From contig NC_015389.1 of NCBI RefSeq assembly GCF_000195315.1, forward strand, positions 806,001 to 870,000: a stretch of 64,000 nt of DNA. Reading direction: 5' to 3'. Within the stretch, counting starts at the first letter, position 1. Each line of letters opens with the position of its first letter. Position numbers and translations under genes: made by a program. This DNA comes from Coriobacterium glomerans PW2. Lineage in GTDB: Bacteria; Actinomycetota; Coriobacteriia; Coriobacteriales; Coriobacteriaceae. This document shows positions 3,489 to 17,708 of this stretch, piece after piece. The notes below the pieces were generated by a model. The model was not told the DNA's origin. It did no database searches and was given only the letters and a program-made list of their open reading frames with translations.

Positions 3489-5711
3489 ATGAAGATCATC
3501 AAGCGAAGCGGGGTAGAGGTCGCGTTCGATGTCGATAAGATATCGAGCGCCATCCGAGGTGCCAACAAGGAAGTGAAGGAGGCCGACCGCCTCACCGAGC
3601 GCCAGGTGATCTATGCGTCGCAAAACGTCGCGGAAGCCTGCGAGCGCGCCGGGCACACCGTTTCAGTCGAGGAGATCCAAGATCTCGTCGAGGATGAGAT
3701 CATGGCGCTCGATCGCTTCGAGGTCGCGCGCAGGTACATCATCTACCGCTACCTGCAGGGCCTGAAGCGCCAGAAGAACACGACCGATGACAAGATCCTG
3801 TCGCTCATCGAGCACAACAACGAAGAGGTCAAGCAGGAGAACTCGAATAAGAATCCCACGGTCAACTCTGTGCAGCGCGACTACATGGCCGGTGAGGTCT
3901 CCAAGGATCTCACCGCGCGCGTCCTGCTGCCGCGCGACATCGTGAAAGCGCACAATGAGGGTATCATCCATTTCCATGATTCGGACTACTTCGCGCAGCA
4001 TATGCACAACTGCGATCTCGTCAACCTCGATGATATGCTGCAGAACGGCACCGTCATCTCCGGCACGCTCATCGAGAAGCCGCACGGTTTCTCGACGGCG
4101 TGCAACATCGCCACGCAGATCATCGCGCAGGTCGCTTCGAACCAGTACGGCGGGCAGTCCATCTCGCTGACGCATCTGGCCCCCTTCGTGGAAGTTTCAC
4201 GACGCAAGATCCGCCGCGAGGTCGAGCGCGAGCTCGCCGAGCTCGGTGCGCATGCAGACGAGGACGATATCTCGAAGGTGGTCGAGGATCGGCTGCGCGA
4301 CGAGATCCGTCGCGGCGTTCAGACCATCCAGTACCAGGTCGTCACCCTCATGACCACCAACGGACAAGCGCCGTTCGTGACCGTGTTCATGTACCTCAAC
4401 GAGGCGCGCTCCGCAGACGAGAAGCGCGATCTGGCCATGATCATCGAGGAGACGCTCCGGCAGCGCTACGAGGGTGTGAAAAACGAGGCCGGCGTATGGA
4501 TCACACCGGCGTTTCCCAAGCTCATCTATGTGCTTGAAGAGGATAACGTCGAGGAGGGCGCGCCCTTCTTCTATCTCACGCAGATGGCTGCCAAGTGCAC
4601 CGCCAAGCGCATGGTGCCCGACTACATCTCCGAGAAGAAGATGCGCGAGCTCAAGCTGTCGGCCGGCGAGCAGCCTGGCGAGGGAGACTGCTACACCTGC
4701 ATGGGCTGTCGCAGCTTCCTCACGCCGGATCGCTCCGGCGACGGCTACGGCAACGTGGCGCGCGCGCGCAACCATGTGCCCGGCGCTCCGAAGTACTACG
4801 GGCGCTTCAACCAGGGTGTCGTGACCATCAACCTGCCTGACGTCGCCCTGTCCTCGGGCAAAGATGAGGACGAGTTCTGGCGGATCTTCGACGAGCGGCT
4901 CGAGCTGTGCCACCGGGCGCTGCGTCTGCGCCATGAGCGGCTGCTCGGCACGCCCTCGGATGCCGCGCCGATCCTGTGGCAGTACGGCGCGCTGGCGCGC
5001 CTGTCCAAGGGCGAGACCATCGATCGACTGCTCTTCGGCGGCTACTCCACGATCAGCTTGGGCTACGCCGGCCTCTACGAGTGCGTGAAGTACATGACGG
5101 GCCACAGTCATACCGAGAAGGCCGGCACGCCGTTCGCCATGCGCGTCATGCAGCACATGAACGACAAGTGCTCCGCGTGGAAGCTCGCTGAGGACATCGA
5201 CTACTCGCTGTACGGAACGCCGCTCGAGTCGACGACGTACACGTTCGCGAAAGCCCTCCAGCGCCGCTTCGGCATCATCCCCGGCGTGACGGACAAGGGC
5301 TACATCACGAACAGCTATCACGTGCACGTGAGCGAGGAGATCGATGCGTTCGACAAGCTGAAGTTCGAAAGCGAGTTCCAGGCGCTCTCGCCGGGTGGTG
5401 CGATCTCCTACATCGAGGTGCCCGATATGCAGGACAACCTCAAGGCGGTCGTGAGCGTGATGCGCTATATCTACGACAACATCATGTACGCCGAGCTGAA
5501 CACGAAAAGCGATTACTGCCAGGAGTGCGGCTTCGACGGCGAGATCAAAATCGTCGAGGACGACGGCAAGCTCGTGTGGGAGTGCCCGCGCTGCGGCAAC
5601 CGCGATCAGGAGAAGCTGAACGTCGCCCGGCGCACCTGCGGCTATATCGGCACGCAGTTCTGGAACCAGGGACGCACCGAGGAGATTCGCGACCGGGTCC
5701 TGCATCTGTGA
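3489..5711 (+). CDS. nrdD: Anaerobic ribonucleoside-triphosphate reductase, class III
   Basis: Reduces ribonucleoside triphosphates to deoxy forms without oxygen, using a glycyl radical. The N-terminal 90 or so residues form an ATP-cone (KIIKRSGVEVAFDVDKI), an allosteric dATP/ATP site. The C-terminus carries the zinc site (CQECG ... CPRCGN) and the glycyl radical loop RRTCGYIG near the end. At 740 residues it is full length. The ATG at 3489 has GGGGA 6 nt upstream and is preferred to the ATG at 3474. The nrdG activase follows after 53 bp. NrdR boxes upstream indicate control by nucleotide supply. Confidence 0.97.
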   Translation: MKIIKRSGVEVAFDVDKISSAIRGANKEVKEADRLTERQVIYASQNVAEACERAGHTVSVEEIQDLVEDEIMALDRFEVARRYIIYRYLQGLKRQKNTTDDKILSLIEHNNEEVKQENSNKNPTVNSVQRDYMAGEVSKDLTARVLLPRDIVKAHNEGIIHFHDSDYFAQHMHNCDLVNLDDMLQNGTVISGTLIEKPHGFSTACNIATQIIAQVASNQYGGQSISLTHLAPFVEVSRRKIRREVERELAELGAHADEDDISKVVEDRLRDEIRRGVQTIQYQVVTLMTTNGQAPFVTVFMYLNEARSADEKRDLAMIIEETLRQRYEGVKNEAGVWITPAFPKLIYVLEEDNVEEGAPFFYLTQMAAKCTAKRMVPDYISEKKMRELKLSAGEQPGEGDCYTCMGCRSFLTPDRSGDGYGNVARARNHVPGAPKYYGRFNQGVVTINLPDVALSSGKDEDEFWRIFDERLELCHRALRLRHERLLGTPSDAAPILWQYGALARLSKGETIDRLLFGGYSTISLGYAGLYECVKYMTGHSHTEKAGTPFAMRVMQHMNDKCSAWKLAEDIDYSLYGTPLESTTYTFAKALQRRFGIIPGVTDKGYITNSYHVHVSEEIDAFDKLKFESEFQALSPGGAISYIEVPDMQDNLKAVVSVMRYIYDNIMYAELNTKSDYCQECGFDGEIKIVEDDGKLVWECPRCGNRDQEKLNVARRTCGYIGTQFWNQGRTEEIRDRVLHL

Positions 5712-5764
5712 TCCGGCCGGATCGCAGAGACATCCACCCGAGGACATGAGAGCGTGAGCCGTCT

Positions 5765-6319
5765 ATGAACTTCGCCGCCATCAAGTACTGCGACATCGCC
5801 AACGGAGAGGGGGTCAGGACCTCACTGTTCGTCTCCGGCTGCCGCCGGGGCTGTCCGGAGTGCTTCAACCCCGAGACATGGAGCTTCACGGCGGGCGAGC
5901 CGTTTACCGGCGAGACGGCCGAGCAGATTCTCGAGAGCCTGGATCAGCCCTTCGTCGCGGGGCTGACGGTGCTCGGCGGCGAGCCGATGGAGCCGGAGAA
6001 CCAGAGCGGTCTCGTCGGGTTTCTCGAGTCGGTTCGCGCGCGCTTCCCGATCGGTGGCCCCGAGACGATCTGGTGCTACACGGGCGACACCCTCGAGGAG
6101 CTGCAAGAAGGCGGTCCGCACCGCACCGATGTCACCGATCGCGTGCTGGCGTGCCTGGATGTTCTGGTGGATGGTCCATACGAACGCGAGCTGCACGATA
6201 TCACGCTGCGTTTCCGCGGCTCGTCCAACCAGCGGATCATCGACATGATCCGCACGCGCGATCAGGGTCGCGTCGTGCTGTGGGAAGATGATCGGCTGTA
6301 CGCCAGTCACACGATGTAG
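5765..6319 (+). CDS. nrdG: Anaerobic ribonucleotide reductase activating protein (radical SAM)
   Basis: Radical-SAM activase that generates the glycyl radical on NrdD. The cluster motif CRRGCPEC (C26, C30, C33) has the CxxxCxxC spacing, and GGEP follows at the SAM site in VLGGEPMEPEN. At 184 residues it is of normal length. It follows nrdD in the same operon, and folE begins 26 bp after its stop. Confidence 0.95.
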   Translation: MNFAAIKYCDIANGEGVRTSLFVSGCRRGCPECFNPETWSFTAGEPFTGETAEQILESLDQPFVAGLTVLGGEPMEPENQSGLVGFLESVRARFPIGGPETIWCYTGDTLEELQEGGPHRTDVTDRVLACLDVLVDGPYERELHDITLRFRGSSNQRIIDMIRTRDQGRVVLWEDDRLYASHTM

Positions 6320-6345
6320 CCGCGCGGCGGCCGCGAGAGGAGACC

Positions 6346-6906
6346 ATGATCGACCAGAAGAAGATCGAGCAGGCGGTGGAGCTGCTGCTCGAAGGCATCG
6401 GAGAGGACCCCGGTCGTGCGGGCCTCATAGAGACGCCGGCACGCGTGGCGCGCATGTACGCCGAGCTGTGCGCAGGAAAGCTCGACGACGCGTCGAAGCA
6501 TCTCGCGCGGACGTTTTCGGTTTCCGGCAACGATTTGGTGATCGAGCGAGACATCATGTTCCACTCCCTGTGCGAGCACCATCTGCTGCCCTTTTTCGGC
6601 CACGTGCACATCGGCTACGTGCCGTGTGGCCGCGTGGTGGGGCTCTCCAAGCTCGCTCGGCTCGTCGAGGTGTTCGCGCGCCGTCTGCAGCTGCAGGAGC
6701 GCATGACCGCCCAGATCGCCGATGCGCTCATGGAGCAGCTGGCACCGCAGGGTGTCATTGTCATGATCGAGGCGGAGCACCTGTGCATGGCGATGCGCGG
6801 TGTCGCAAAACCGGGTACATGGACCACGACGCTCGCCGTGCGCGGCATCATCGAGCAAGACCCCGAGATAGAGCAGCGCTTCTTCCGAATGCTCGGACGA
6901 CCCTGA
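6346..6906 (+). CDS. folE: GTP cyclohydrolase I
   Basis: Converts GTP to 7,8-dihydroneopterin triphosphate, the first step of folate synthesis. The zinc ligands C76 and H79 (SLCEHHLLPF) and C147 (HLCMAMRGV) are present, and the 186-residue length is standard for type IA enzymes. The start ATG follows GAGAGGAG. It comes directly after nrdG and is followed by folB, so nucleotide reduction and pterin synthesis may share a transcript. No other folate genes (folP, folK) are in the window. Confidence 0.97.
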   Translation: MIDQKKIEQAVELLLEGIGEDPGRAGLIETPARVARMYAELCAGKLDDASKHLARTFSVSGNDLVIERDIMFHSLCEHHLLPFFGHVHIGYVPCGRVVGLSKLARLVEVFARRLQLQERMTAQIADALMEQLAPQGVIVMIEAEHLCMAMRGVAKPGTWTTTLAVRGIIEQDPEIEQRFFRMLGRP

Positions 6907-6980
6907 TCCTGCTGGCTCGAGGCTTGCACGTGTCGGCGTCTGCCGGCGATCTGAGGAAGCGATGTGAGGAGATCGTTCAC

Positions 6981-7469
6981 ATGACAAAAAGGAATCTGCC
7001 AGAGAGCACGTCGGCGGGGGAGGCACGCGGCCTCGCGCGTCGAAGGAGACCCGGGCTGTCGGAGAGCCGGGCGGCCATCGTGCCCACGGCGGCTGAGCAG
7101 CTCGCCGGCGCGGACAGGATTCGCATCGATGGTCTCGAGGTATTTGCGAAGCACGGGGTGAACCCCGCGGAAAACGAGCTCGGACAGAAGTTCATCGTCT
7201 CGGCGACACTCTATGTGAGCCTTCGTCGCGCGGGCTGCACAGATGATCTTGCCGATACCGTCGACTACGGTGCGGTCTGCCACACGATCGATATGTTTTT
7301 GCGCGCAAGGACCTGCAAGCTCATCGAGGCCGCCGCAGAGGGTCTGGCCACTGAGCTGCTGCGGGCGTATCCGGCTCTGCTGGGCGTACGGCTTGCCATA
7401 GACAAGCCCTGGGCGCCGATCGGTCTGCCGCTGGCTGGCGTTTCAGTCGAGATCGAGCGCACCCGCTGA
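6981..7469 (+). CDS. folB: Dihydroneopterin aldolase
   Basis: Cleaves dihydroneopterin to 6-hydroxymethyl-dihydropterin and glycolaldehyde. The domain begins at ADRIRIDGLEVFAKHGV and includes the conserved NELGQKF segment and the active-site lysine in AIDKPWAPI. The protein has 162 residues, about 40 more than usual, because of a polar Arg-rich N-terminal extension. The ATG at 6981 has GAGGAG about 10 nt upstream; a GTG nearer the domain could be the true start. The same frame runs open far upstream inside folE, but that part is a shadow. The 3' end overlaps the convergent YgjP-like gene by 27 bp. Confidence 0.88.
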   Translation: MTKRNLPESTSAGEARGLARRRRPGLSESRAAIVPTAAEQLAGADRIRIDGLEVFAKHGVNPAENELGQKFIVSATLYVSLRRAGCTDDLADTVDYGAVCHTIDMFLRARTCKLIEAAAEGLATELLRAYPALLGVRLAIDKPWAPIGLPLAGVSVEIERTR

Positions 7470-8165
7470 GCGCGCTCGCGCGATCTCCATCGGCGAGCGC
7501 TTGAGCCAGCTGCGCACGATTCGATTTCGCGGGAAGTGGCGGTCGAGCAGCTTGTGAAAGCGCGCTTTGTGGCTCGGCTCGATGAGATGGATGAGCTCGT
7601 GGGTCACGACGCAATCAAGGCACGCGGGCGGAAACGCCGCGAGAGCCGAGCTTATGCGGATGGCACCGGTTGCCGGGGTGCACGAGCCCCAGCGCGAGGT
7701 CATATCTCGGACGCGCCAGGTGCGCGCCCGCACGCCCACAACGGTCTCGATGCGCGCTGCGACCAAGGGCAGCGCACGGACCAGTTCGTCGTGATAGAGC
7801 GCGTCGAGCCGCGTGCGGCGCGGCCCGACGGACGCGGCTCGGAGAACCTCTTTCGCCTTGACCGGCTCCCCCCACAGCGCTATCAGCTCACCGGCGCCGT
7901 CGGCATGCGCGCATCGGCGAGCCGCGCTGATGCGCTCGAGTCTGTCGACGTGCTTGAGAATCCATATAACGCGCCGATCGATGAAGCGCTGGGCCGCATC
8001 GCGACTTGCTGCAACCGGGATGCTCATGACCGCCGTCGCATCGGAGCGGATTCTGAGATTCAGATTCTTCACGCGTTTTCTCGTCACATGCACCGGGACG
8101 CGCCGGGTATCAGAGGCGGCGTAGAGGGTGTATGTATGATCGTCTATACTTATCTCGGACGACAT
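7443..8165 (-). CDS. YgjP-like (DUF45/WLM) metal-dependent hydrolase
   Basis: A 240-residue cytoplasmic protein of the YgjP family of putative zinc metalloproteases. The signature is in place: SRWGSC (157-162) before the zinc motif HELIH (H189, E190, H193), with a third His at 199 in PSHKARFH. Members are often found with restriction systems, but none is nearby. It is divergent from the isomerase gene at 8299 and convergent with folB, overlapping its end by 27 bp. The substrate is unknown. Confidence 0.85.
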   Translation of the reverse strand: MSSEISIDDHTYTLYAASDTRRVPVHVTRKRVKNLNLRIRSDATAVMSIPVAASRDAAQRFIDRRVIWILKHVDRLERISAARRCAHADGAGELIALWGEPVKAKEVLRAASVGPRRTRLDALYHDELVRALPLVAARIETVVGVRARTWRVRDMTSRWGSCTPATGAIRISSALAAFPPACLDCVVTHELIHLIEPSHKARFHKLLDRHFPRNRIVRSWLKRSPMEIARARSAGALDLD

Positions 8166-8216
8166 CGTGTTTTGTGCTCCACTCGTGTTGCCTCACAACA
8201 GGGCGACGCGCGGCTT

Positions 8217-8244
8217 TTGCCTGTGCGCCTCCATCAACTATAGT
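8217..8244 (+). promoter_or_regulatory. Putative sigma-70-type promoter of the FKBP gene
   Basis: TTGCCT (8217-8222) and TATAGT (8239-8244) are separated by 16 bp, 55 bp before the start codon at 8299. Both hexamers match the vegetative consensus in four or more positions. Confidence 0.6.
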
Positions 8245-8298
8245 GATGCGGACACGTCTGCGCATCCGAGCGGACCAAAGCGACAGAATCGAGGACTG

Positions 8299-8730
8299 AT
8301 GTCAAACGAGGGCAAGAAGGTTCGTGCTCATTACTGCGGCACGCTTGACGATGGGACAAAGTTCGACAGCTCATATGATCGCGGCGAACCGATCGCGTTC
8401 ACCTGCGGCGCGCATCAGATGATAGCCGGTTTCGATCAAGCGGTGGCAGGCATGGCCCAAGGGGAGAAGAAATCAGTGCACATTCCGGCCGCGGAGGCAT
8501 ACGGCGAGAGGCGCGAAGATCTCATCATGCGCTTTCCTGCAGACCAGGTGCCGAATCGCGAGGACTTGAGCGTCGGAGACCAGCTCTATCTCTCCAGTCC
8601 GGAAGGAAGACCGGTCCCCGCCACCGTCACAGCCATAGATGATGCGTTCGTCACGCTCGACGCCAACCATCAGCTTGCGGGATGCGACCTCAACTTTGAC
8701 ATCGAACTCGTTGAGATCGAGGAGAAATAG
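8299..8730 (+). CDS. FKBP-type peptidyl-prolyl isomerase, SlyD-like
   Basis: A 143-residue proline isomerase and chaperone. The FKBP core (VRAHYCGTLDDGTKFDSSYDRGEPIAF) is followed by the inserted-in-flap chaperone domain (EAYGERREDLIMRFPADQV), typical of SlyD, and ends in FDIELVEIEEK. The His-rich metal-binding tail of E. coli SlyD is absent. The ATG at 8299 has GAGGAC upstream; an open frame back to 8167 crosses the promoter and is not used. Confidence 0.92.
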   Translation: MSNEGKKVRAHYCGTLDDGTKFDSSYDRGEPIAFTCGAHQMIAGFDQAVAGMAQGEKKSVHIPAAEAYGERREDLIMRFPADQVPNREDLSVGDQLYLSSPEGRPVPATVTAIDDAFVTLDANHQLAGCDLNFDIELVEIEEK

Positions 8731-8795
8731 CGCCCGCCGTCGTCATTGGATTTCGCCGACAAGGATGAAGGATCTCGAGGTTGAAGGAGTCGCAT

Positions 8796-9587
8796 ATGAT
8801 CAAACTCATCGCATCGGATATGGACGGAACGCTGCTCGACCGTGACGGTCACGTGCCCCCTGAGACGTTCGATCTCATCGTAGCCCTTCGCGAGAAGGGG
8901 GTGCATTTCGTCGCGTCATCGGGCCGCCGCTATGATCGTCTCTGTGAGTTCTTCGCGCCGGTCAAGGATCAGATGGATTACGTCGCCGCCAACGGCGCGC
9001 AGGTTTTTGCCGAGGGCGACCTCGTCGACCGAGAGGTCTACTCGCATCTGGGCATCAAGCGCCTCGCCAAAACGGTATCGATGTTCGCGAATATGCATCT
9101 TGCGCTTTTCGATAGCACGAAGTCGTTTTTGCTGGATGATGAGCACAAGTTCGTTCGCGAGGTCGACAAAGATCTGCCGAATGCCGAGCGCATCTGGGAG
9201 CTTCCCGGAGCGCATATCAACATCATCAAGGCATCGATCTTCTGCGATGACGGCAACGTGATGGATAACGCCTACGTGCTCTCGCGCGAACTCGGTGATG
9301 AGTTCGTCTTCGCGCCATCGGGCAGTTCGTGGATCGACTCGATGCAACGCGGGATCACGAAGGCTTCCGGTATCCGTCAGCTGATGGAGTTCTATGGCAT
9401 CGAGCGCGAGGAGGTCATGGCCTTCGGTGACTCGATGAACGACTACGAGATCATTCGCTTCGTCGGGACCGGTCTCGCCATGGCGAACGGTCGTCCGGCG
9501 CTGCGCGCGGTCGCCGATCGCGTCATCGGTTTCAATTACGAGCAGTCGGTTCAAGCCGAGATGCGCAACGTGCTTGAATCGATCTAG
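8796..9587 (+). CDS. Cof-type HAD-superfamily sugar phosphatase
   Basis: A 263-residue phosphatase with the HAD motifs DMDGTLLD (nucleophile near residue 8), SSGRR (motif II), a lysine in the GITKASG segment, and GDSMNDYEII (motif IV). The large cap is of type IIB, as in Cof/YidA proteins that dephosphorylate sugar phosphates and cofactors. The ATG at 8796 lies 6 nt after GAAGGAGT. It stands alone, before the RpiR regulator. Confidence 0.9.
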   Translation: MIKLIASDMDGTLLDRDGHVPPETFDLIVALREKGVHFVASSGRRYDRLCEFFAPVKDQMDYVAANGAQVFAEGDLVDREVYSHLGIKRLAKTVSMFANMHLALFDSTKSFLLDDEHKFVREVDKDLPNAERIWELPGAHINIIKASIFCDDGNVMDNAYVLSRELGDEFVFAPSGSSWIDSMQRGITKASGIRQLMEFYGIEREEVMAFGDSMNDYEIIRFVGTGLAMANGRPALRAVADRVIGFNYEQSVQAEMRNVLESI

Positions 9588-9698
9588 GTTCACTCGCGAG
9601 CGGTACATAGCGCGTGATGGCTTGACGATGAGGCGCTCTCCATAATGGGCTGCAGACTTCTCATCGATGTGCATTTCGAATCTAGAGAAGGAGAGGAG

Positions 9699-10547
9699 AT
9701 GCAGATGGACAGCAAGTTCATGAGCCGAATTCAAAGTCGCTACGAAGGTATGAACAAAACGGAGACGACGATCGCCGATTACCTTTCCCGCCACGGAGAA
9801 GAGGCTTGCTATCTGTCGATCTCCGATGTGGCCGATAAAATCGGTGTGTCGAAATCCGCTGTTTCCCGGTTTGTTCGCAAGCTCGGATATAAGGGCTATC
9901 GCGAGATGAGGATCGATCTAGCCGCTCCGCCCGATACTACCTCTGCGTTTTTCTTTTCCGATATTGAAGCAAATTCTACGATGGGAATCGCGCAATCGAT
10001 CATCGGCAACGGCATCTCCTCGCTTTCGCTGACCTATGCTGCTCTGAATGAAAAAGGCCTCGATGCCGCTGTTGAAATTCTAAAGAATGCCGATATATGC
10101 GGCCTGTATGGTCTAGGCGGCTCGTTTCCGATCGCAGCGAGCGCCTATCATCGCTTCATGCGGACGTCACTCACCTTTATCTTCCAGCAAGACTATCATC
10201 TGCAACTGCAGACTGCGGCAAGATTGACTAAAGATGATTGCGCCCTGATCATTTCTCATACCGGGCGAAACAAGGATATGCTAAGAGTCGCTAAAATAAT
10301 TCATGAGCGGGATGCGCCCATCGTCACGATCACCGGCAACGTCTTTTCCCCGTTGGCGAAGATGAGTCAAGTTGTTATCCCCTCGATTTCAAGAGAAACC
10401 AAGTTGAGACCAGAGGCGCTGGCATCTTCGGTTTCCCAGATTCTTTTGGTTGACACGCTCTTTGCGCTCTATGCGATAAAAGTCGACAATGAGCCCGAAT
10501 ACTTTTCGAATATTCGCAAAGTTGTAGAGGAAACACGCGCTAAATAG
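9699..10547 (+). CDS. RpiR-family transcriptional regulator
   Basis: A 282-residue regulator with an N-terminal HTH (residues about 1-75; ISDVADKIGVSKSAVSRFVRKLGYKGY) and a C-terminal SIS domain that binds phosphosugars (SHTGRNKDMLRVAKI). It precedes a mannose-family PTS operon and is separated from it by an intrinsic terminator and an AT-rich region with an inverted repeat, its likely operator. The start may be the ATG at 9699 or 9705; both follow GAAGGAGAGG. Its ligand is probably a phosphorylated intermediate of that operon. Base composition is lower in GC than the genes before it. Confidence 0.9.
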   Translation: MQMDSKFMSRIQSRYEGMNKTETTIADYLSRHGEEACYLSISDVADKIGVSKSAVSRFVRKLGYKGYREMRIDLAAPPDTTSAFFFSDIEANSTMGIAQSIIGNGISSLSLTYAALNEKGLDAAVEILKNADICGLYGLGGSFPIAASAYHRFMRTSLTFIFQQDYHLQLQTAARLTKDDCALIISHTGRNKDMLRVAKIIHERDAPIVTITGNVFSPLAKMSQVVIPSISRETKLRPEALASSVSQILLVDTLFALYAIKVDNEPEYFSNIRKVVEETRAK

Positions 10548-10578
10548 CGTAACTGCTCCCGTACAAGCAGGAAGCTGC

Positions 10579-10615
10579 AAACGCGACGAGCCGCTCAGCC
10601 GCTCGCCGCGTTTTT
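10579..10615 (+). terminator. Intrinsic terminator after the RpiR gene
   Basis: Stem AAACGCG-a-CGAGC paired with GCTCG-c-CGCGTTT round a 9-nt loop, followed by TTTTT at 10611-10615. It lies 32 bp after the regulator stop and separates it from the PTS operon. Confidence 0.88.
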
Positions 10616-10633
10616 CATGCCGCTTGTCTATAA

Positions 10634-10682
10634 CTAAAACTTATTCTCAATATTGATATTTAAAAATAAGAAATAGTTTTAG
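10634..10682 (+). promoter_or_regulatory. Inverted repeat in the PTS promoter region, likely RpiR operator
   Basis: CTAAAACTTATTCT (10634-10647) and AGAAATAGTTTTAG (10669-10682) are inverted copies with 12 of 14 positions matching, spaced by 21 bp of AT-rich DNA. A TTGTCT hexamer at 10624 and CAATAT at 10648 could form a promoter that the left arm overlaps. RpiR proteins bind such repeats as dimers. The assignment to the adjacent regulator is inferred. Confidence 0.6.
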
Positions 10683-10753
10683 AATGATCAAACGGATCAG
10701 ATGGAATGCAGATGGGTGCATCCGTCGACAACATGCGGGAAAGGAAGCAAGCC

Positions 10754-11578
10754 ATGGAGGTAACGGTCGTTCAGGCCCTGATAATCGCGATATGGATCGC
10801 AGCGGTCATGTCACGCGCTTTGCTTGGTGGCGCTACGACGACGTTGCGATTCACACCGATGATGACGGGTCTTGTAGTCGGTGTCGTCTTCGGAAGAATT
10901 GCTGAAGCAATGATTGTCACTGCATCTATCCAGTTGATCTATATGGGAGTTTTTTCTCCTGGAGGTCAAATGCCGTCGGAACCGGCTATTGCGGCAGGCG
11001 TTGCGGTGCCAGTTGCGCTGTTGAGTAATATGTCCGCAGAGGCTGCGATTGCAATCGCTGTGCCCGTCGGACTGCTCGGCTCCTATCTCTATCAGCTTCG
11101 TTTCTTCATCAACACACTTGTGCTGAGTCGACTTTCGGACAAATATGCAGCTGAATCAAATAGCAAGATGTTGAGTTTCACCATCATCGGTTTGCCGATC
11201 ATTATCGCATTTATCATCTACGTGCCGTTCATGTTCGTTGCACTCTACTTCGGCGCACCGGTCATCGCAGATATCGTCGGATCTGCTTCGGGTACCGTCA
11301 TCTTTCATGTTCTGACAACGATCGGTGGTGGCTTAGCCGCTATCGGAATCGCTGTAACCGTATATGTGATCGGAAAGAAAAACTATATCGCGTTTTTCCT
11401 GCTTGCATATTTTTGCGCCGTGATCCTGAAAAGTCTCAATGTGACCATGATCACTTACGCTATCGTCGGCGGCATCATAGCATTCATATACGTACTGGTA
11501 AAAACGGAGACCCTCTCCATGGTCAAAGCGACTTCTAGCGCTTCCTCCATCGCCGATGACGACGATGATGACTATTAG
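10754..11578 (+). CDS. PTS mannose/fructose/sorbose-family EIIC
   Basis: Membrane component of a group-translocation system. The 274 residues contain about eight hydrophobic segments and the family start (EVTVVQALIIAIWIAAVMSRALLGG) with the PLVVGVV-like MTGLVVGVVFG segment. The ATG at 10754 has GGAAG upstream, preferable to an in-frame ATG at 10706. The C-terminus ends in an acidic run of Asp residues. First gene of the operon IIC-IID-IIB-IIA. Confidence 0.93.
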   Translation: MEVTVVQALIIAIWIAAVMSRALLGGATTTLRFTPMMTGLVVGVVFGRIAEAMIVTASIQLIYMGVFSPGGQMPSEPAIAAGVAVPVALLSNMSAEAAIAIAVPVGLLGSYLYQLRFFINTLVLSRLSDKYAAESNSKMLSFTIIGLPIIIAFIIYVPFMFVALYFGAPVIADIVGSASGTVIFHVLTTIGGGLAAIGIAVTVYVIGKKNYIAFFLLAYFCAVILKSLNVTMITYAIVGGIIAFIYVLVKTETLSMVKATSSASSIADDDDDDY

Positions 11579-11608
11579 ATTCACTCGAATATAGAAGGGT
11601 CGAACATC

Positions 11609-12496
11609 ATGGCTGAATCGATAGAAAATACTTCGGATGCTGTCACGGAAATAAATTGTGCGACCAATCAGCCCGAGGAGATAACAAAACGGGATGTAGC
11701 AATAGCATGGCTGCGTTTCTATTTCGCAGATGAGATCCCCCACTGCTTCGATCGATACATCGCTCCTGCCCTTACTTGGGCGCTCATGCCGATATTGCGC
11801 AAACTGTACAAGAGCAAGACTGACTTGGCCGCAGCCTACCAGCGTCATCTCCTTTTCTTCAATACGCAGATTTCATGGGGTGGCGGGACGCTGACCGGTA
11901 TCTCCGCTTCCTTGGAGGTTGCTCGCGCCAAGGAAATGGCTGCTGGAGTTGACATTACAATTGATGATGATCTGATTTACAATTCCAAGGCCGGTCTCAT
12001 GGGCGCGCTCTCAGGGATTGGCGATTCAATCGATTCGGGAACGATACAGTACATTTTCATTGCAATCGCTCTGCCATGGGCGCAGGCTGGAAATCCCATC
12101 GGTGCTCTATTCCCATTTATCGGGTTTTCGTTGTACCAGCTTGTGATTGGATGGTACTTTGCGAATCTCGGATTCAAGCTTGGTAAAAGTGCGGCAACCG
12201 AGATTGTCGGCACGCAGATGCAGGTTATCATCGAAGCTCTGTCTATCCTCGGTTTGTTCATGATGGGTATTCTCGCGGCAAATTACGTCACGGTCGCATC
12301 GTCGTTATCCTTCACGCTTTCAGGCAAGGAATTTGTCATCCAAGATATCTTGAATACGATCATGCCCGGCCTTTTACCTCTTCTCACTGTTGGCGGCGTC
12401 TACTTGTATTTTGTCAAGAAGGGCATGAACGTCACAAAGGCACTTCTCGGTCTGACGCTTGTTCTCGGTGTGCTGGCCGCTGTGGGTATTTTATAG
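11609..12496 (+). CDS. PTS mannose/fructose/sorbose-family EIID
   Basis: Second membrane subunit, unique to the mannose PTS family. The 295 residues include the YQRHLLFFNTQ motif, the conserved GxxAGLMGALSGIGDSI segment (written here with SKAGLMG) and a hydrophobic C-terminus. It is 30 bp after IIC. A 104-bp gap with a long hairpin separates it from IIB. Confidence 0.95.
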   Translation: MAESIENTSDAVTEINCATNQPEEITKRDVAIAWLRFYFADEIPHCFDRYIAPALTWALMPILRKLYKSKTDLAAAYQRHLLFFNTQISWGGGTLTGISASLEVARAKEMAAGVDITIDDDLIYNSKAGLMGALSGIGDSIDSGTIQYIFIAIALPWAQAGNPIGALFPFIGFSLYQLVIGWYFANLGFKLGKSAATEIVGTQMQVIIEALSILGLFMMGILAANYVTVASSLSFTLSGKEFVIQDILNTIMPGLLPLLTVGGVYLYFVKKGMNVTKALLGLTLVLGVLAAVGIL

Positions 12497-12519
12497 CGAC
12501 TGCAAGAAAGTACTGCGTC

Positions 12520-12567
12520 GTCGCTGCGTCTCGATGCTGACCTTTCGTTCGTGCTGGACGCAGCGAC
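12520..12567 (+). repeat. Intercistronic hairpin between EIID and EIIB
   Basis: Perfect 11-bp inverted repeat GTCGCTGCGTC (12520-12530) / GACGCAGCGAC (12557-12567) with a 26-nt loop. No T-run follows, so it is unlikely to end transcription alone. It could be an mRNA processing or stability element that sets membrane versus soluble subunit levels. Confidence 0.7.
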
Positions 12568-12600
12568 CTGCAGGTTTAGTTATATTTAAAGGAGGAGAGC

Positions 12601-13104
12601 ATGGGAGAGATCGTTCTCGCGCGCGTTGACGCGCGATTGATTCACGGACAAGTAATGACCAATCTTTCAAAATCTGCTGGAGCAACTGCTATTTTTGTCG
12701 TCGACGATGCGTCGGCTCACGACGATTTCATGAAAAACGTAATCTTGGGTGCGGGTTCTCGCACAGGGTTGAAATGCCGGGTGCTCAAAGAAGAGGGTGC
12801 GATACGATACTGGTGCGACCGTCGCTATGATGACTACAAGGTCATCTTGCTGACGAAGTCTATCGAAAAGATGGCTTATCTCATCGAAGGCGGCGTACCC
12901 ATTAAATCTGTCAACTTGGGAGGTGTTCCGCGCCGTCCAGAAACAACGGAGATTATCAAGGCAGTCGCAATAGACAACGAAGAGTATCAGCTTCTGAGGC
13001 ATCTTGAGCGATCTTTCGGTATAGAGATTTATTTTCAATCAACCCCTTCGCTTCCAAAACTATCGCTTGCGGAAGCAGGCCGGATCATGGAGAAGACACT
13101 ATGA
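12601..13104 (+). CDS. PTS mannose/fructose/sorbose-family EIIB
   Basis: A 167-residue cytoplasmic phosphocarrier. The phosphorylated histidine is H15 in RLIHGQV, and the VDARLIHGQV start is typical of the family. A strong AAAGGAGGAGAG site precedes the ATG. Its last codons overlap the IIA start by 4 bp. It receives phosphate from IIA and passes it to the sugar bound by IIC/IID. Confidence 0.95.
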   Translation: MGEIVLARVDARLIHGQVMTNLSKSAGATAIFVVDDASAHDDFMKNVILGAGSRTGLKCRVLKEEGAIRYWCDRRYDDYKVILLTKSIEKMAYLIEGGVPIKSVNLGGVPRRPETTEIIKAVAIDNEEYQLLRHLERSFGIEIYFQSTPSLPKLSLAEAGRIMEKTL

Positions 13105-13532
13105 TTGGCGTGCTGCTGATCAGCCATGGAAAGATGGCGGAAGGCATGCTTGATACCGTCCAGATGGTATTGGGCGAAGAAGATGGTATCGATTATGTCT
13201 CACTTGAACCTGGTGAGGATTACAACGAATTCAGCATGCGCATCGACGAAAAGATACGTTCCCTCGATGAGGGTGATGGAGTCATCGTGCTCGCGGATCT
13301 ATTTGGGGCCTCTCCGTTCAATATGACGCAAAGAGTCGCTCGAGACCTTGAGAGGCAGGGAATCAGGAGCCGTCTCGTTGCAGGCATGAATTTGGGAATG
13401 ATCGTTGAGATCATGGTTCTGAGGCGGGGGAGTCTGCTGGATGAGTTGACCGATGTCGCCATTTCATGCGGCCGACAGGGTATCGGATGTCCAGTCGAGG
13501 TAACCGACGAGGAAGATGAGGATGATTACTGA
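13101..13532 (+). CDS. PTS mannose/fructose/sorbose-family EIIA
   Basis: A 143-residue IIA domain protein, phosphorylated by HPr at H9 (LLISHGKMAEG). The DLFGASPFN segment (DLxGGSP-like) is conserved. The tail is acidic. It overlaps IIB by 4 bp and the following dehydrogenase by 1 bp, so translation is probably coupled. Confidence 0.94.
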   Translation: MIGVLLISHGKMAEGMLDTVQMVLGEEDGIDYVSLEPGEDYNEFSMRIDEKIRSLDEGDGVIVLADLFGASPFNMTQRVARDLERQGIRSRLVAGMNLGMIVEIMVLRRGSLLDELTDVAISCGRQGIGCPVEVTDEEDEDDY

Positions 13533-14467
13533 TGAAGAAAGTCCTTATAACTCCCCGTTCATTCGCCAAGAACAACCGTGATCAGATCTTTGAGCTTTTG
13601 AGTGAACATGGCATCGCCCCCGTTTTGAATCCATACGGTCGCATCCTTACAGAAGATGACATGATCCGACAGATTCACGACGCCGATGGATTGATAGTGG
13701 GAGTCGATCCAGTGACGCGAGACGTTCTTGAGGCTGCTCCGAAACTTCGGGCGATCGCAAAATACGGTGTGGGAGTCGATAACATAGATATGGAGTGCGC
13801 TCTGTCGCGCGGCGTGAGCGTCTCGCGCACTATTGGGGCCAACGCCGATGCCGTCGCAGATTTCACGATGACGCTTCTGCTCGCAGTGGCCCGTCGTTTG
13901 ACGGAAATCGACTCGGGATGCCACCACGGCGATTGGGCGAAGAAGGAAGCTCTCGATGTTTACGGGAAGCGAATCGGAGTTCTGGGACTCGGCGCGATCG
14001 GGAAAGGTGTGGCAAAGCGCGCGCAGGGCTTCGATATGAGTGTCTTTGCGTATGATATCGTCAAAGATGAGCAATTCATCAAAAGAAACAATATCATATT
14101 CACCGATGTGGAGACGATCGTACGGGAATGCGACTTCATCACCTTGCATCTACCGCTCACTGAGACAACTCGTCATCTGCTCAACAAAAATAGCTTGAAA
14201 GCTGCGAAGCCAAACTTGGTCGTTGTCAATACGGCACGCGGGGCCTTGCTTGATGAGGCTTCGATGTTTGATCTGCTTGCGACAAGACGGATCTATGGTT
14301 TGGGTGTCGATGTGTTCGAGCACGAACCGCCCTGCGATTCGAGGCTCTTGACGCTTCCAAATGTTATTGCCGGTTCTCATACCGCTGCATCTTCACAGGG
14401 CGCTACCGCTGCGATGAGCGAGATGGCATCACGCAACATCATCAGAGCGCTGTCATTATCCAACTGA
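13532..14467 (+). CDS. D-isomer-specific 2-hydroxyacid dehydrogenase (SerA-like)
   Basis: NAD(P)-dependent dehydrogenase of 311 residues. It has the Rossmann motif GLGAIGKG near residue 150, the active-site Arg in NTARGALLDE, a Glu in VFEHEPP, and a His in GSHTAA. It resembles 3-phosphoglycerate dehydrogenase without the ACT domain. Location inside a PTS operon next to a KDPG-type aldolase argues against serine synthesis and for oxidation or reduction at C2 of a sugar acid phosphate. The actual substrate is unknown. The stop of IIA overlaps its start (TGATG). Confidence 0.88.
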   Translation: MKKVLITPRSFAKNNRDQIFELLSEHGIAPVLNPYGRILTEDDMIRQIHDADGLIVGVDPVTRDVLEAAPKLRAIAKYGVGVDNIDMECALSRGVSVSRTIGANADAVADFTMTLLLAVARRLTEIDSGCHHGDWAKKEALDVYGKRIGVLGLGAIGKGVAKRAQGFDMSVFAYDIVKDEQFIKRNNIIFTDVETIVRECDFITLHLPLTETTRHLLNKNSLKAAKPNLVVVNTARGALLDEASMFDLLATRRIYGLGVDVFEHEPPCDSRLLTLPNVIAGSHTAASSQGATAAMSEMASRNIIRALSLSN

Positions 14468-14486
14468 TTCGAGCAAAGGATAGATC

Positions 14487-15137
14487 ATGAGTAGATTCGA
14501 GATCTTCGACAGACTCAAAACGGAAAAGATTGTAGCTGTGATTCGAGGTGAACATGAGAAGCTGGTCGATAGAACGGTCGATGCCGTGCACCGCGGGGGC
14601 ATTCATCTGATGGAGATCACATTTACCGTGCCCAGAGCCGAGCATGTCATATGTGATCTCGTTCAGAGATATGCACAAGACGAAAAAACAGTGATTGGCG
14701 CCGGGACGTGTCTCGATGTCGTGTCCGCGCGGCTTGCAATCTCGGCGGGAGCCAAGTTCGTGGTCTGCCCACATTTGGACATCGAGATTTTAAAGTTGTG
14801 CAACAGCTACGATATACCGTGTATTCCCGGAGCAGCTACTGTGCGAGATATGCATGAGGCTCTGGAATACGGTGCTTATGTAATCAAGCTCTTTCCCGGT
14901 GACATATTCGGTCCAGATGCCATCAGGGCGTTTCACGGGCCCCTTCCGCAGGCTGAGTTTATGCCTACGGGAGGTGTCAACGCATCCAATATCACAACAT
15001 GGCTCGGGGCGGGCGCGATAGCGGTCGGCACCGGTGGAAGCCTCACCAAGGGTGCATCGACGGGAAATTATGAAGCGGTGACCGAAGAAGCCTCTAAACT
15101 GGTCAAATGCGTTTGCGAATTTAAAAATGCTATCTAA
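14487..15137 (+). CDS. KDPG/KHG-family aldolase
   Basis: Class I aldolase of 216 residues that splits 2-keto-3-deoxy-6-phosphogluconate or relatives to pyruvate and an aldehyde. The catalytic E43 (MEITFT) and Schiff-base K134 (VIKLFPG) are visible, with the phosphate-binding MPTGGV segment. It follows the dehydrogenase by 19 bp and overlaps the HAD gene by 11 bp. No Entner-Doudoroff dehydratase (edd) is nearby, so the substrate must come by another route. Confidence 0.92.
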   Translation: MSRFEIFDRLKTEKIVAVIRGEHEKLVDRTVDAVHRGGIHLMEITFTVPRAEHVICDLVQRYAQDEKTVIGAGTCLDVVSARLAISAGAKFVVCPHLDIEILKLCNSYDIPCIPGAATVRDMHEALEYGAYVIKLFPGDIFGPDAIRAFHGPLPQAEFMPTGGVNASNITTWLGAGAIAVGTGGSLTKGASTGNYEAVTEEASKLVKCVCEFKNAI

Positions 15138-15813
15138 GAAAACGGTTTTCATATTCGATCTGGATGGGTTGTTGCTGGACACCGAGTGCATCTACAAGCG
15201 CGGATGGGAGATCGCGTTGCAACGGCTCGGGTTATTTCTGCCCGATTCGGTTCTGAATAGCTGGGCGGGAAAGAGTATAGATCACACGCGTGCCGCCTTC
15301 GACGATTTCTTTCAAGATACTTCTATCTACGATCGGGCTTATGCGATCAGAGAGGAATACATACTGGAAACGCTTCGGAAGGGCCGGCTGATGCCCAAGC
15401 CATACGCCCCCGAGGCGTTGCAGAAGATTTCCGAAGTGGGGTGCAGATCCGGCGTCGTCACATCTTCCCAGCGCAAGCGAGCCATGATTATGCTCACAGC
15501 TTTGGGGCTGATGCATTATTTCGACCACATGGTGAGCGCTGAAGATGTTTCTCGACGAAAACCTGATCCGGAACCATATCACAGAATCGTATCGCTATTT
15601 GAATCGGATTACCGGTCCTGTATCGCCTTTGAAGACTCTCTGACCGGATACCGTTCGGCAGCTGCCGCAGGTGTCGACGTGATTCTTGTGCCGGATTCAA
15701 GCATCTCACAGCAGCTGGAGAGACGTCCATCGGTCCGCGCCGCCCGTGACCTGTCTGTGGTGATGACTATGCTCGGCGAGCCGAAGAATTACAAGAGGGG
15801 GGAACGTCAGTGA
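15127..15813 (+). CDS. HAD-superfamily phosphatase / beta-phosphoglucomutase-like
   Basis: A 228-residue HAD protein with nucleophile motif DLDGLLLDTE, motif II VTSSQ, the RRKPDPE lysine region and IAFEDSLTGYRSA. The cap is helical (type I), as in beta-phosphoglucomutase and YniC-like sugar phosphatases. It overlaps the aldolase at its start and the membrane protein at its end by 4 bp, so it belongs to the PTS operon. Its substrate is likely a pathway intermediate. Confidence 0.88.
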   Translation: MLSKKTVFIFDLDGLLLDTECIYKRGWEIALQRLGLFLPDSVLNSWAGKSIDHTRAAFDDFFQDTSIYDRAYAIREEYILETLRKGRLMPKPYAPEALQKISEVGCRSGVVTSSQRKRAMIMLTALGLMHYFDHMVSAEDVSRRKPDPEPYHRIVSLFESDYRSCIAFEDSLTGYRSAAAAGVDVILVPDSSISQQLERRPSVRAARDLSVVMTMLGEPKNYKRGERQ

Positions 15814-16742
15814 ATGCGGCAGATCGCGAACGTGTGCAGGATTTCATTTTACGATACGGTTACATATTCGGTACACGCTTTTCTTTTGCCCAAAAAAGAA
15901 GGTTCCTGATGATGGCGCGAAGAGAGTTCGAGCTTTGCGATATGCCAGTCGATATCCACAAGGTGCAAATGGGTGGGACGTGGGTTGCGAAAAAAGTCTA
16001 TCGCAATCTGTACGCAGGGGATTTAGACCGGTGCACATGGCTTGTTACGACATACTATGATACGCCGATCAAGTCGTTCTCGCGCCGACGCGCCGAGGCG
16101 TTCACATCCGGTTTCAGATTTCGTGATCTCGTAGCGAGTTCGGTGGTTTCTATGCTGCTGGTCCTTGGCGCTGCTGAGATTCTCTGGTCAACTCTCATTC
16201 CTCCGCTTCGGCAATCGGGTGTCTTCAGCATCTGGGGTCTTGTCTTTGTCATAGTGCTATTCCTCACCTGTGCAGCGGTGATTCGACTGAGGGAGGGTAT
16301 CGCACGACGGGGCAACGTCATTCGTAATTCTTCGAGTCTCATGGTGATTTTTCAACTCGCAAATGTGTTGAGACGGACTAACAGCTTGTCTCATGTGGCG
16401 TTCGCTCTGATCGATGAAGGATGCCGTTGTGAATTGGGAGTAAAGATGCTTTCTGATCGACTGGGTGACAGGCACCCAAGACGTGTCTACCTTGATGCCG
16501 TCGGGGCCGTCGGGAGTGTAATCTGCTTTTCGAGACTGTCAACTCCCTATCGCTGGCCGGCAATCGTTCGGTCATCATCTAGTGAAGAGGAGCTCAGCAA
16601 GGGTGAGTATCTGATCACCGCTGGATCTGAAGACGACTCAAATCGTATCCATATTCATATCGATGAAAAAGGAGAAATTGATACGGATCGAATTCTATCA
16701 AGAGTATCGCTTTTAGAATCATTGCTAGCTATGGAGAGATAG
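15810..16742 (+). CDS. Membrane protein with a degenerate M28-peptidase-like fold
   Basis: A 310-residue protein with two membrane helices (about 107-130 and 138-158). No close family is recognised. Around the helices the sequence follows the order of M28 aminopeptidases: VTTYYDTP (79-86) where the metal-binding HxD would be, RNSSSLMVIFQLANVL (172-187), FALIDEGC (198-205) near the E-E pair, and LDAVGAVG (228-235). His is replaced by Tyr, and the later Asp and Glu ligands are largely lost, so an active zinc site is unlikely. It ends the PTS operon, with a 4-bp overlap. The M28 relation is inference from pattern only. Confidence 0.5.
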   Translation: MNAADRERVQDFILRYGYIFGTRFSFAQKRRFLMMARREFELCDMPVDIHKVQMGGTWVAKKVYRNLYAGDLDRCTWLVTTYYDTPIKSFSRRRAEAFTSGFRFRDLVASSVVSMLLVLGAAEILWSTLIPPLRQSGVFSIWGLVFVIVLFLTCAAVIRLREGIARRGNVIRNSSSLMVIFQLANVLRRTNSLSHVAFALIDEGCRCELGVKMLSDRLGDRHPRRVYLDAVGAVGSVICFSRLSTPYRWPAIVRSSSSEEELSKGEYLITAGSEDDSNRIHIHIDEKGEIDTDRILSRVSLLESLLAMER

Positions 16743-16758: not shown

Positions 16759-17649
16759 CTACGTGTGGGATAGCATTTCGGAAACGCCATCGCTAGAAAT
16801 GACCGAGCTCTGATGCTCGCTCTCGTCGGATCGGCGGCCGGCTATCAGCGCTTGGATCGCGCGAGCGACGCCGTCCTCCTCGTTCGAGAGGCAGATCTCA
16901 TCAGCCGCCGCGCTCACCTCCTGCTCGGCGTTGCCCATCGCGAAACCGATGCCCGCCGCGCGCACCATCGAGATGTCATTGATGTTGTCACCGAAGGCGA
17001 CGGAGTCCGCCACCGGGATTCCCAGATGGCCGCACAGCCAGAGAAGCGCAGCGCCCTTGGTGGCGCCGGCGTCTGAGACCTCGATGTTGGTCGGGTAGGA
17101 GCGCACGCAGGAGACGCTCGGGTCACTGAGGATGTTCGGCAGCAGGTAATCGCGGTCGTTCGCGTCGTGCCAGTACATCGCGATTCGTTCGATCTGATCG
17201 AGTGAATCGATGAAGGCGGGCACCTCTCCGTCGAAGGGCGTGCGCGACTCGCGCATGGATTGCAGGGTGTAGGGATCGCTGATGAAGACATCGAGGCGCT
17301 CGTAGTTTCTGCGCTCGGTGTAGCACGCTCCATCGGCGAAGATATCGAACGTCACGTCCCGGTCCGCTCTGAGTTCGAGCAGCGCGAGCGCGCGATCGCG
17401 CCCGAGGCATATTCGGCGCAGAAGCCGCCTTTCGACCGTATCATAGATGCTCGCGCCGTTCGCCGATATGATATGGCTCGCCGCGGGGTGCTCGATGAGC
17501 CGGGTGTCTATCCGCGTTGCCGCGCGTCCCGTGCAGGGCACGAATCTGTGGCCGGCGCGCGCGAGAGCATCGAGGGCAGAGAACGTGCGCTCGGTGATGG
17601 TTTTTTCCGCAGTGAGAAGCGTTCCATCCAGATCAGAGAAAACGATCAT
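16759..17649 (-). CDS. Cof-type HAD-superfamily phosphatase
   Basis: A 296-residue sugar-phosphatase-like protein: FSDLDGTLLTAEK (nucleophile), CTGRAATR (motif II), GATKGAAL (lysine) and GDNINDISM (motif IV). The ATG at 17649 follows GAAGGAAG; the frame upstream to 17694 has no site. It lies 59 bp after the ACT-domain gene in the same direction and converges with the PTS operon with a 16-bp gap. Confidence 0.9.
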   Translation of the reverse strand: MIVFSDLDGTLLTAEKTITERTFSALDALARAGHRFVPCTGRAATRIDTRLIEHPAASHIISANGASIYDTVERRLLRRICLGRDRALALLELRADRDVTFDIFADGACYTERRNYERLDVFISDPYTLQSMRESRTPFDGEVPAFIDSLDQIERIAMYWHDANDRDYLLPNILSDPSVSCVRSYPTNIEVSDAGATKGAALLWLCGHLGIPVADSVAFGDNINDISMVRAAGIGFAMGNAEQEVSAAADEICLSNEEDGVARAIQALIAGRRSDESEHQSSVISSDGVSEMLSHT

Positions 17650-17708
17650 AGCCAGGCTTCCTTCGTTTCGCGTCGGGCAAACAGCGCGCATCATGCGCTG
17701 TGCCCCTC

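Follow-up and report, generated by a model that had tools for sequence, protein, structure and literature searches.

The genome of Coriobacterium glomerans PW2, a gut-type bacterium, carries, within the 64,000-nucleotide stretch analyzed here (bases 806001-870000 of a single contig of 2.1 Mb; hereafter, the window), an eight-gene operon that joins a complete mannose-family phosphotransferase system (PTS) to a D-2-hydroxyacid dehydrogenase (DH) and an aldolase of the 2-keto-3-deoxy-6-phosphogluconate (KDPG) type. We tentatively propose, at somewhat short of an even chance, that this RpiR-regulated operon serves to import and degrade six-carbon sugar acids, namely, gluconate, 2-ketogluconate and, probably, 2-keto-3-deoxygluconate (KDG), and, as part of the same proposal, that it represents a form, lacking the dehydratase, of the gluconate/mannonate-route operons of enterococci. 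Operons of this kind are already known, if biochemically unproven; the dehydratase-free form, known here from its genes, is new. Use of the Entner-Doudoroff route by enterococci was reported decades ago, yet these bacteria lack Edd, a "long-standing enigma" (PMC7701990, 2020 mBio), and the accessible part of that article leaves open how the product of the mannonate dehydratase encoded beside such a PTS becomes the aldolase substrate. The window operon and its counterpart in the Bacillota genome G639, each with a PTS, a single dehydrogenase and a single aldolase, are the smallest version of what is apparently the same kind of operon, and could help to show which acid is handled by PTSs of this type and whether the pathway can do without a dehydratase.

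Under this proposal, the PTS would import the acid and phosphorylate its C6 hydroxyl. The DH, an NAD-type enzyme, would reduce 2-keto-6-phosphogluconate to 6-phosphogluconate, which would be turned into ribulose-5-phosphate by a short 6-phosphogluconate dehydrogenase (6PGDH) encoded elsewhere in the genome and, in relatives, in the same operon; the DH and the NAD-type 6PGDH would together make up a redox-neutral 2-ketogluconate route. KDG taken up by the PTS would give KDPG directly, to be split by the aldolase into pyruvate and glyceraldehyde-3-phosphate, and the HAD protein of the operon may clear toxic or stalled sugar-acid phosphates. The sequence shows which genes are present, that the core is conserved, which enzymes accompany it in relatives and that Edd is absent; all the substrates named are predictions.

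The operon and its products

The operon and its upstream regulator comprise the following genes.

9645..10547, + strand: MurR/RpiR-family regulator (HTH_6 and SIS domains by Pfam, at 77 and 61 bits)
10754..11578, + strand: PTS IIC, mannose family (PF03609, EII-Sor, 175 bits, 2e-51)
11609..12496, + strand: PTS IID, mannose family (PF03613, EIID-AGA, 252 bits, 5e-75)
12601..13104, + strand: PTS IIB, mannose/sorbose family (PF03830, PTSIIB_sorb, 138 bits, 5e-40)
13101..13532, + strand: PTS IIA, mannose family (PF03610, EIIA-man, 84 bits, 9e-24)
13532..14467, + strand: DH, phosphoglycerate-dehydrogenase-like (PF02826, 2-Hacid_dh_C, 176 bits, 8e-52; PF00389, 83 bits)
14487..15137, + strand: KDPG-type aldolase (PF01081, 142 bits against a cut-off of 27.8, 2e-41)
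15127..15813, + strand: HAD phosphatase, beta-phosphoglucomutase-like subfamily (PF13419, HAD_2, 102 bits, 7e-29)
15810..16742, + strand: P310, the 310-residue protein at the operon end, with a central hydrophobic pair and a GTG start (no Pfam or NCBIfam family over cut-off)

The eight genes at 10754-16742, called from open reading frames (ORFs) and Pfam, are separated by 30 and 104 nucleotides within the PTS genes and, from IIB on, by -4, -1, +19, -11 and -4 nucleotides, which is the spacing of a single operon. A first-pass annotation, made from the sequence by a model, had described eight overlapping or near-adjacent genes that join a mannose-family PTS to a 2-hydroxyacid dehydrogenase and a KDPG-type aldolase, and the ORFs, Pfam matches and spacing (-11 to 104 nucleotides) bear it out. 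Its statement that the cluster contains no dehydratase, isomerase or deaminase also stands, none being detected among the ORFs and Pfam matches within 10754-16742, and extends to the genome for the IlvD/Edd family (PF00920), which has 0 matches genome-wide and matches in all 14 control genomes. Glucosaminate and gluconate-kinase routes inside the cluster are rejected because no such genes are present there. Missed by that annotation were the RpiR gene just upstream, the true start of which may lie at about 9702 rather than 9645, and another PTS-DH-aldolase cluster, located outside the window. The IIC start at 10754 matches the starts in relatives, the longest ORF beginning at 10706; upstream of IIC, comparison for a shared operator motif gave weak AT-rich similarities only.

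All four PTS components exceed their Pfam cut-offs and miss the NCBIfam equivalogs of the known mannose, galactosamine and N-acetylgalactosamine systems (for example, AgaW, 87 of the 300 bits needed; AgaF, 92 of 130; PRK15088, 89 of 400). P310 contains two likely membrane stretches, as in a two-helix membrane protein, and a TYYDTP-type motif; a profile search against the PDB gave chance matches only, with no solved relative, and the single-sequence AlphaFold2 model has a mean pLDDT of 46, so that its fold is unusable.

The DH belongs to the D-2-hydroxyacid dehydrogenase superfamily, matching the profiles of both the NAD-binding and the catalytic domain, and falls below every NCBIfam equivalog cut-off. 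Arg236, Glu265 and His283, which we take to be catalytic, and Asp175, presumably the residue typical of NAD-dependent enzymes, recur unchanged in the genome's second DH; a single scan of the genome contigs returned a SerA-like gene only. The assignments as 3-phosphoglycerate dehydrogenase (SerA; TIGR01327, 247 bits against 454 needed), glyoxylate reductase (225 against 455) and GhrB-type 2-ketoacid reductase (NF011938, 183 against 492) are rejected on these scores. Phosphoglycerate dehydrogenases and glyoxylate reductases are nevertheless the best solved relatives, as would be expected if the DH served redox balance by acting on 3-phosphoglycerate or on a product or side product of the aldolase (pyruvate, hydroxypyruvate or glyoxylate); we regard such a role as quite improbable, given how clearly the cut-offs are missed and that the pairing with sugar-acid genes is conserved.

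The aldolase exceeds two NCBIfam cut-offs (NF005119, 264 against 238 bits; TIGR01182, 175 against 156). Its closest solved relative is the KDPG aldolase 1wa3, which we take to be the T. maritima enzyme, and K134, E43 and R20, presumably the Schiff-base lysine, the catalytic glutamate and the strand-1 arginine, align with 1wa3. These positions bear on a shunt in which the DH would make 2-keto-6-phosphogluconate from 6-phosphogluconate and the aldolase would split it into hydroxypyruvate and glyceraldehyde-3-phosphate. For such a shunt, the two enzymes present would suffice, the adjacency of their genes and the missing dehydratase would both be accounted for, and the solved relatives of the DH would fit. 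The active-site positions compared are, however, those of KDPG aldolases, with no sign of an altered C3 pocket, and we know of no such reaction in the KDPG-aldolase family, which makes this route highly improbable.

Relatives of the transporter and the dehydrogenase

A search for IID proteins of the window type (alignment A3) matched 65 of 395 genomes in a sample of the order to which G639 belongs (E <= 1e-110), and 13 of 395 from the order that includes the window (E <= 1e-90). The 42 loci compared are a non-random set consisting of the window, G639 and 40 others, that is, 41 of the 65 matching genomes. Partner genes within 9.5 kb of IID were RpiR (39 loci), P310 (38), a DH of either type (37), UxuA (34), aldolase (31), iron-type alcohol dehydrogenase (Fe-ADH; 28), HAD (23) and short 6PGDH (20), with no IlvD/Edd family member in any of the 42. 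The PTS core is a member of a subfamily found within sugar-acid operons of Bacillota and Coriobacteria. All the partner enzymes presumably act on hexonates or hexonate phosphates. Because UxuA, the aldolase and 6PGDH are enzymes of this kind, and because one locus (L174) pairs the PTS, HAD and P310 with 6PGDH as the sole enzyme beside them, a gene content that reads as a minimal set for gluconate, the PTS would most likely bring in gluconate-type acids as phosphates. An acid sugar rather than a neutral hexose, the substrate class put forward by the first-pass annotation, is well supported, and the frequencies of UxuA and short 6PGDH, together with the dehydratases of Coriobacterial relatives, point to gluconate- or mannonate-type acids.

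The G639 operon (L095) matches that of the window in all eight genes and in their order, likewise has RpiR, and differs by the addition of a short NAD-type 6PGDH over the TIGR00872 cut-off and by a divergent RpiR gene. The window proteins are identical to their G639 counterparts at 78% (IID), 73% (IIC), 67% (IIB), 64% (aldolase), 59-60% (DH), 49% (RpiR), 44% (IIA) and 42% (HAD) of the positions. Two Coriobacterial loci, L222 (genome G328) and L223 (G124), share the RpiR-PTS-HAD-P310 core, with identities to the window of 76-79% for IIC (79% in L222), 78% for IID in L222, 51-52% for RpiR and 45% for HAD in L223. A DH was found in neither locus; after the core, both have an IlvD/Edd-family dehydratase, to which L222 adds an Eda-type aldolase and L223 adds Fe-ADH and UxuA. 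Five further Coriobacterial loci (L224-L228) contain a related PTS (IID 54-55% identical to that of G639) with a DH of the Enterococcus faecium type, HAD, a UxaA-type dehydratase, aldolase and Fe-ADH. The lack of a dehydratase noted in the first-pass annotation therefore holds for the window cluster and is atypical of this kind of PTS.

The window thus shares the PTS, P310, HAD and RpiR core of the enterococcal gluconate/PTSclin-type operons, whereas UxuA, a member of most of these operons, is missing from the window and L095. Among the 42 loci, these two alone combine an aldolase with the lack of UxuA, and they carry another DH type and another aldolase clade than the UxuA-bearing loci, with no dehydratase. 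In a tree of 35 hand-chosen aldolases, those of 11 of the 12 PTS operons bearing UxuA, UxaA or an IlvD-family dehydratase fall within one supported clade, which has the E. coli-like pattern; the exception, L203, is a long branch with UxuA and an aldolase that is not of the Eda type. The other superclade contains the aldolases of the window and G639, as a supported pair, and that of L152, a PTS-DH-aldolase-6PGDH operon without a detected dehydratase. Outside the tree, 27 aldolases of UxuA operons have an Eda-type protein as their best match, L203 again does not, and the aldolase of L176 was found by tblastn only. Because both the DH type and the aldolase clade differ from those of UxuA operons, the pair of DH and aldolase appears to have taken the place of the dehydratase-aldolase pair, not to be what is left of it. 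Both other dehydratase-free PTS loci with a DH and an aldolase of this superclade, L095 and L152, contain 6PGDH in the operon.

Relatives of the DH were sought in 398 Bacillota genomes, yielding 53 matches, and 36 loci, mostly the best-scoring ones, were examined. The neighbors are FGGY kinases (17 loci), KDPG-family aldolases (11), aldehyde oxidoreductases (7), 6PGDH (5), the IlvD/Edd family (5), PTS IID (5), the DapA family (4) and UxuA (2). The aldolase gene is on the DH strand in the 11 loci and directly adjoins the DH in 5 of these. The pairing recurs more often than by chance, for which a rough estimate, made with no matched control set and assuming 1-3 aldolase genes in about 2.5 Mb, gives a few per cent. 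The closest DH outside the PTS type (L096, 50% identity) adjoins a gluconokinase-like FGGY kinase, which scores under the gluconokinase family cut-off, and a short 6PGDH over the TIGR00872 cut-off, and for this reason a 2-keto-acid reductase is the favored activity of the DH.

The opposite direction was assumed in the first-pass annotation, according to which the PTS would import a 3-deoxyhexonate, such as metasaccharinic acid, the DH would form KDPG or an isomer by oxidizing the hydroxyl at C2, and the aldolase would cleave the product. We consider this route unlikely. Its strongest point is that 10 of the 12 DH-aldolase loci, the window included, have no same-strand UxuA, UxaA or IlvD, some of the stretches being short on one side (1.6 kb in L099), so that absence there is weak; an enolase-superfamily dehydratase was found in 0 of the 12 and in 2 of 79 loci overall, with a query that matched the genome's own distant member weakly. 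The adjacency of DH and aldolase and the NAD-type Asp of the DH also agree with it, as do LarA-family genes in three of the ten loci (L104, L106 and L156), which would suit mixtures of C2 epimers. On the other side, the strongest point is the 6PGDH and gluconokinase-like neighbors of the closest DHs, beside which a 3-deoxy substrate would have no place, as is also true of the loci where the DH accompanies IlvD-family dehydratases. Moreover, in relatives with the same PTS, 2-keto-3-deoxy acids are formed by dehydratases acting on ordinary hexonates, and the supply of 3-deoxyhexonates is hypothetical.

Two groups of genes recur near DH relatives as observations in their own right. LarA-family (lactate racemase-like) genes, which we take to encode 2-hydroxyacid racemases or epimerases, are found in 7 of 37 loci (L104, L106, L108, L156, L166, L167 and L168) and in 5 of the 12 DH-aldolase loci, and are candidates for C2 epimerization of sugar acids. 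Aldehyde oxidoreductases, presumably of the tungsten type, adjoin the DH in 7 of the 36 Bacillota loci (L100-L103, L159, L165 and L166).

Weighing the proposed pathway

Several observations weigh against the proposed gluconate and 2-ketogluconate pathway. No NCBIfam equivalog fits the DH, and the 6PGDH on which the pathway would depend adjoins ascorbate-type PTS genes, outside the window operon. The aldolase and the DH would be linked chemically only by shared uptake, yet their genes are adjacent here and in 5 of the 36 DH loci; PTS uptake of KDG is hypothetical; and the DH-aldolase loci in which same-strand UxuA, UxaA and IlvD are missing, 10 of 12, would fit a DH that feeds the aldolase directly. 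In this broader form, a dehydratase-free shunt of the Entner-Doudoroff type, the C2 dehydrogenase would supply the aldolase substrate either through oxidation of a 3-deoxyhexonate phosphate to KDPG or through 2-keto-6-phosphogluconate, cleaved to hydroxypyruvate and glyceraldehyde-3-phosphate, and the two genes would form a mobile module of Coriobacteria and Bacillota. We judge this to be somewhat unlikely; if true, the module would stand in for a dehydratase together with an Eda-type aldolase.

The rest of the genome constrains how KDPG could arise. A canonical Entner-Doudoroff pathway with Edd encoded elsewhere is rejected for the IlvD/Edd family by the lack of PF00920 matches. The genome encodes three KDPG-type aldolases, one UxuA, located in a hexuronate cluster between UxuB-like and UxaC genes, one member of the altronate/galactarate dehydratase family and two enolase-superfamily genes over cut-off. 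Because UxuA and other dehydratase-family genes are present and PF00920 is absent, it seems that the cell can obtain KDPG by other routes and not by the classical Edd. One of these would be a mannonate route completed in trans, in which the DH would oxidize 6-phosphogluconate to 2-keto-6-phosphogluconate, another dehydrogenase would reduce the latter to mannonate-6-phosphate, and UxuA or another dehydratase would produce KDPG for the aldolase. The prevalence of UxuA (34 of 42 loci) and Fe-ADH (28 of 42) beside the same PTS, the 51% identity between the genome's UxuA and that of the E. faecium operon, and the gluconate "mannonate route" mentioned in the accessible parts of PMC4528170 and PMC2766626 are consistent with this scheme. 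Against it, the genome's UxuA probably serves glucuronate, to judge by its neighbors, and the window aldolase lies outside the clade that accompanies UxuA, UxaA or IlvD in PTS operons; on balance, we find it improbable.

The only short 6PGDH of the genome lies in L116 (1770000-1787000). There, positions 3847-8980 hold this NAD-type enzyme together with ascorbate-type PTS, lactonase-like and RpiR genes, an unusual pairing in which the PTS and lactonase names are our own presumptive assignments from sequence.

Related systems and neighboring genes

The step proposed for the DH has a counterpart in the 2-ketogluconate (kgu) route of Pseudomonas, in which KguD reduces 2-keto-6-phosphogluconate to 6-phosphogluconate; that route differs in not being PTS-based and in having Edd downstream, which is missing from the genome analyzed here. 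The D-glucosaminate system of Salmonella (Dga) likewise combines a mannose-family PTS for an acid sugar with a KDPG-type aldolase at the end of the pathway, and differs by an ammonia-lyase, which the window cluster lacks.

Closer relatives are found in enterococci. As described in the accessible parts of the sources, EF3134-EF3142 of E. faecalis is a predicted gluconate PTS operon with catabolism "via the mannonate route" (PMC2766626), in an organism without Edd, and includes an Eda homolog (EF3134), a mannonate dehydratase (EF3135) and the PTS (EF3136-3139) (PMC7701990). As in the window, the PTS adjoins a KDPG aldolase and no Edd is known in the organism; the window, however, lacks a counterpart of EF3135, and its DH and aldolase types differ from those of the UxuA-bearing loci compared. 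EF3134-3142 is probably the same operon kind as that of the window's PTS type, its gene order, by description only, fitting loci such as L171. The characterization of the pathway as largely undescribed in the first-pass annotation is accordingly half right: this relative had already been predicted, and, among the titles and opening lines of abstracts in the open-licence literature, no operon of a PTS with a 2-hydroxyacid dehydrogenase and a KDPG aldolase is described.

The E. faecium plasmid pVB3378_p4 (L094) carries, in order, RpiR, short Gnd, DH, a piece of an alcohol dehydrogenase (ADH), IIC, IID, IIB, P310, IIA, UxuA and HAD. It shares with the window RpiR, IIC and IID (59% identity each), IIB, IIA, a P310 homolog, a 2-hydroxyacid DH (30% identity only) and HAD, and differs in the presence of short Gnd, ADH and UxuA, with no aldolase annotated between UxuA and HAD. 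By gene content, this operon is probably of the PTSclin kind; the substrate of PTSclin, a hospital-associated system of E. faecium, "remains to be elucidated", according to the accessible part of PMC9040824. At 2990-3856 of L094, the P310 homolog is annotated as two short ORFs and forms one full frame in the near-identical operon L169.

The second PTS-DH-aldolase cluster of the C. glomerans genome (L019, 1796000-1813000, positions 7909-15242, minus strand) consists of genes for a LacI regulator, a SIS-domain protein, PTS IIB, IIC and IID, a DH (33% identical to that of the window), IIA, a DapA-family protein and a KDPG-type aldolase. The part from IIB to the aldolase (IIB-IIC-IID-DH-IIA-DapA-aldolase) is kept in genomes G278 and G128 at about 47-78% identity. 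A KDO- or ulosonate-type pathway was considered for L019 and is rejected for the window operon, which has no SIS enzyme and no DapA-family protein. The combination of SIS, DapA and aldolase is also found on an E. gilvus plasmid, with an ascorbate-type PTS.

Genes for Cof-type, HAD-IIB-like phosphatases lie on both flanks of the window operon, at 8781-9587, as called by the Pfam scan, and at 16759-17694, as judged by the sequence of the gene alone.

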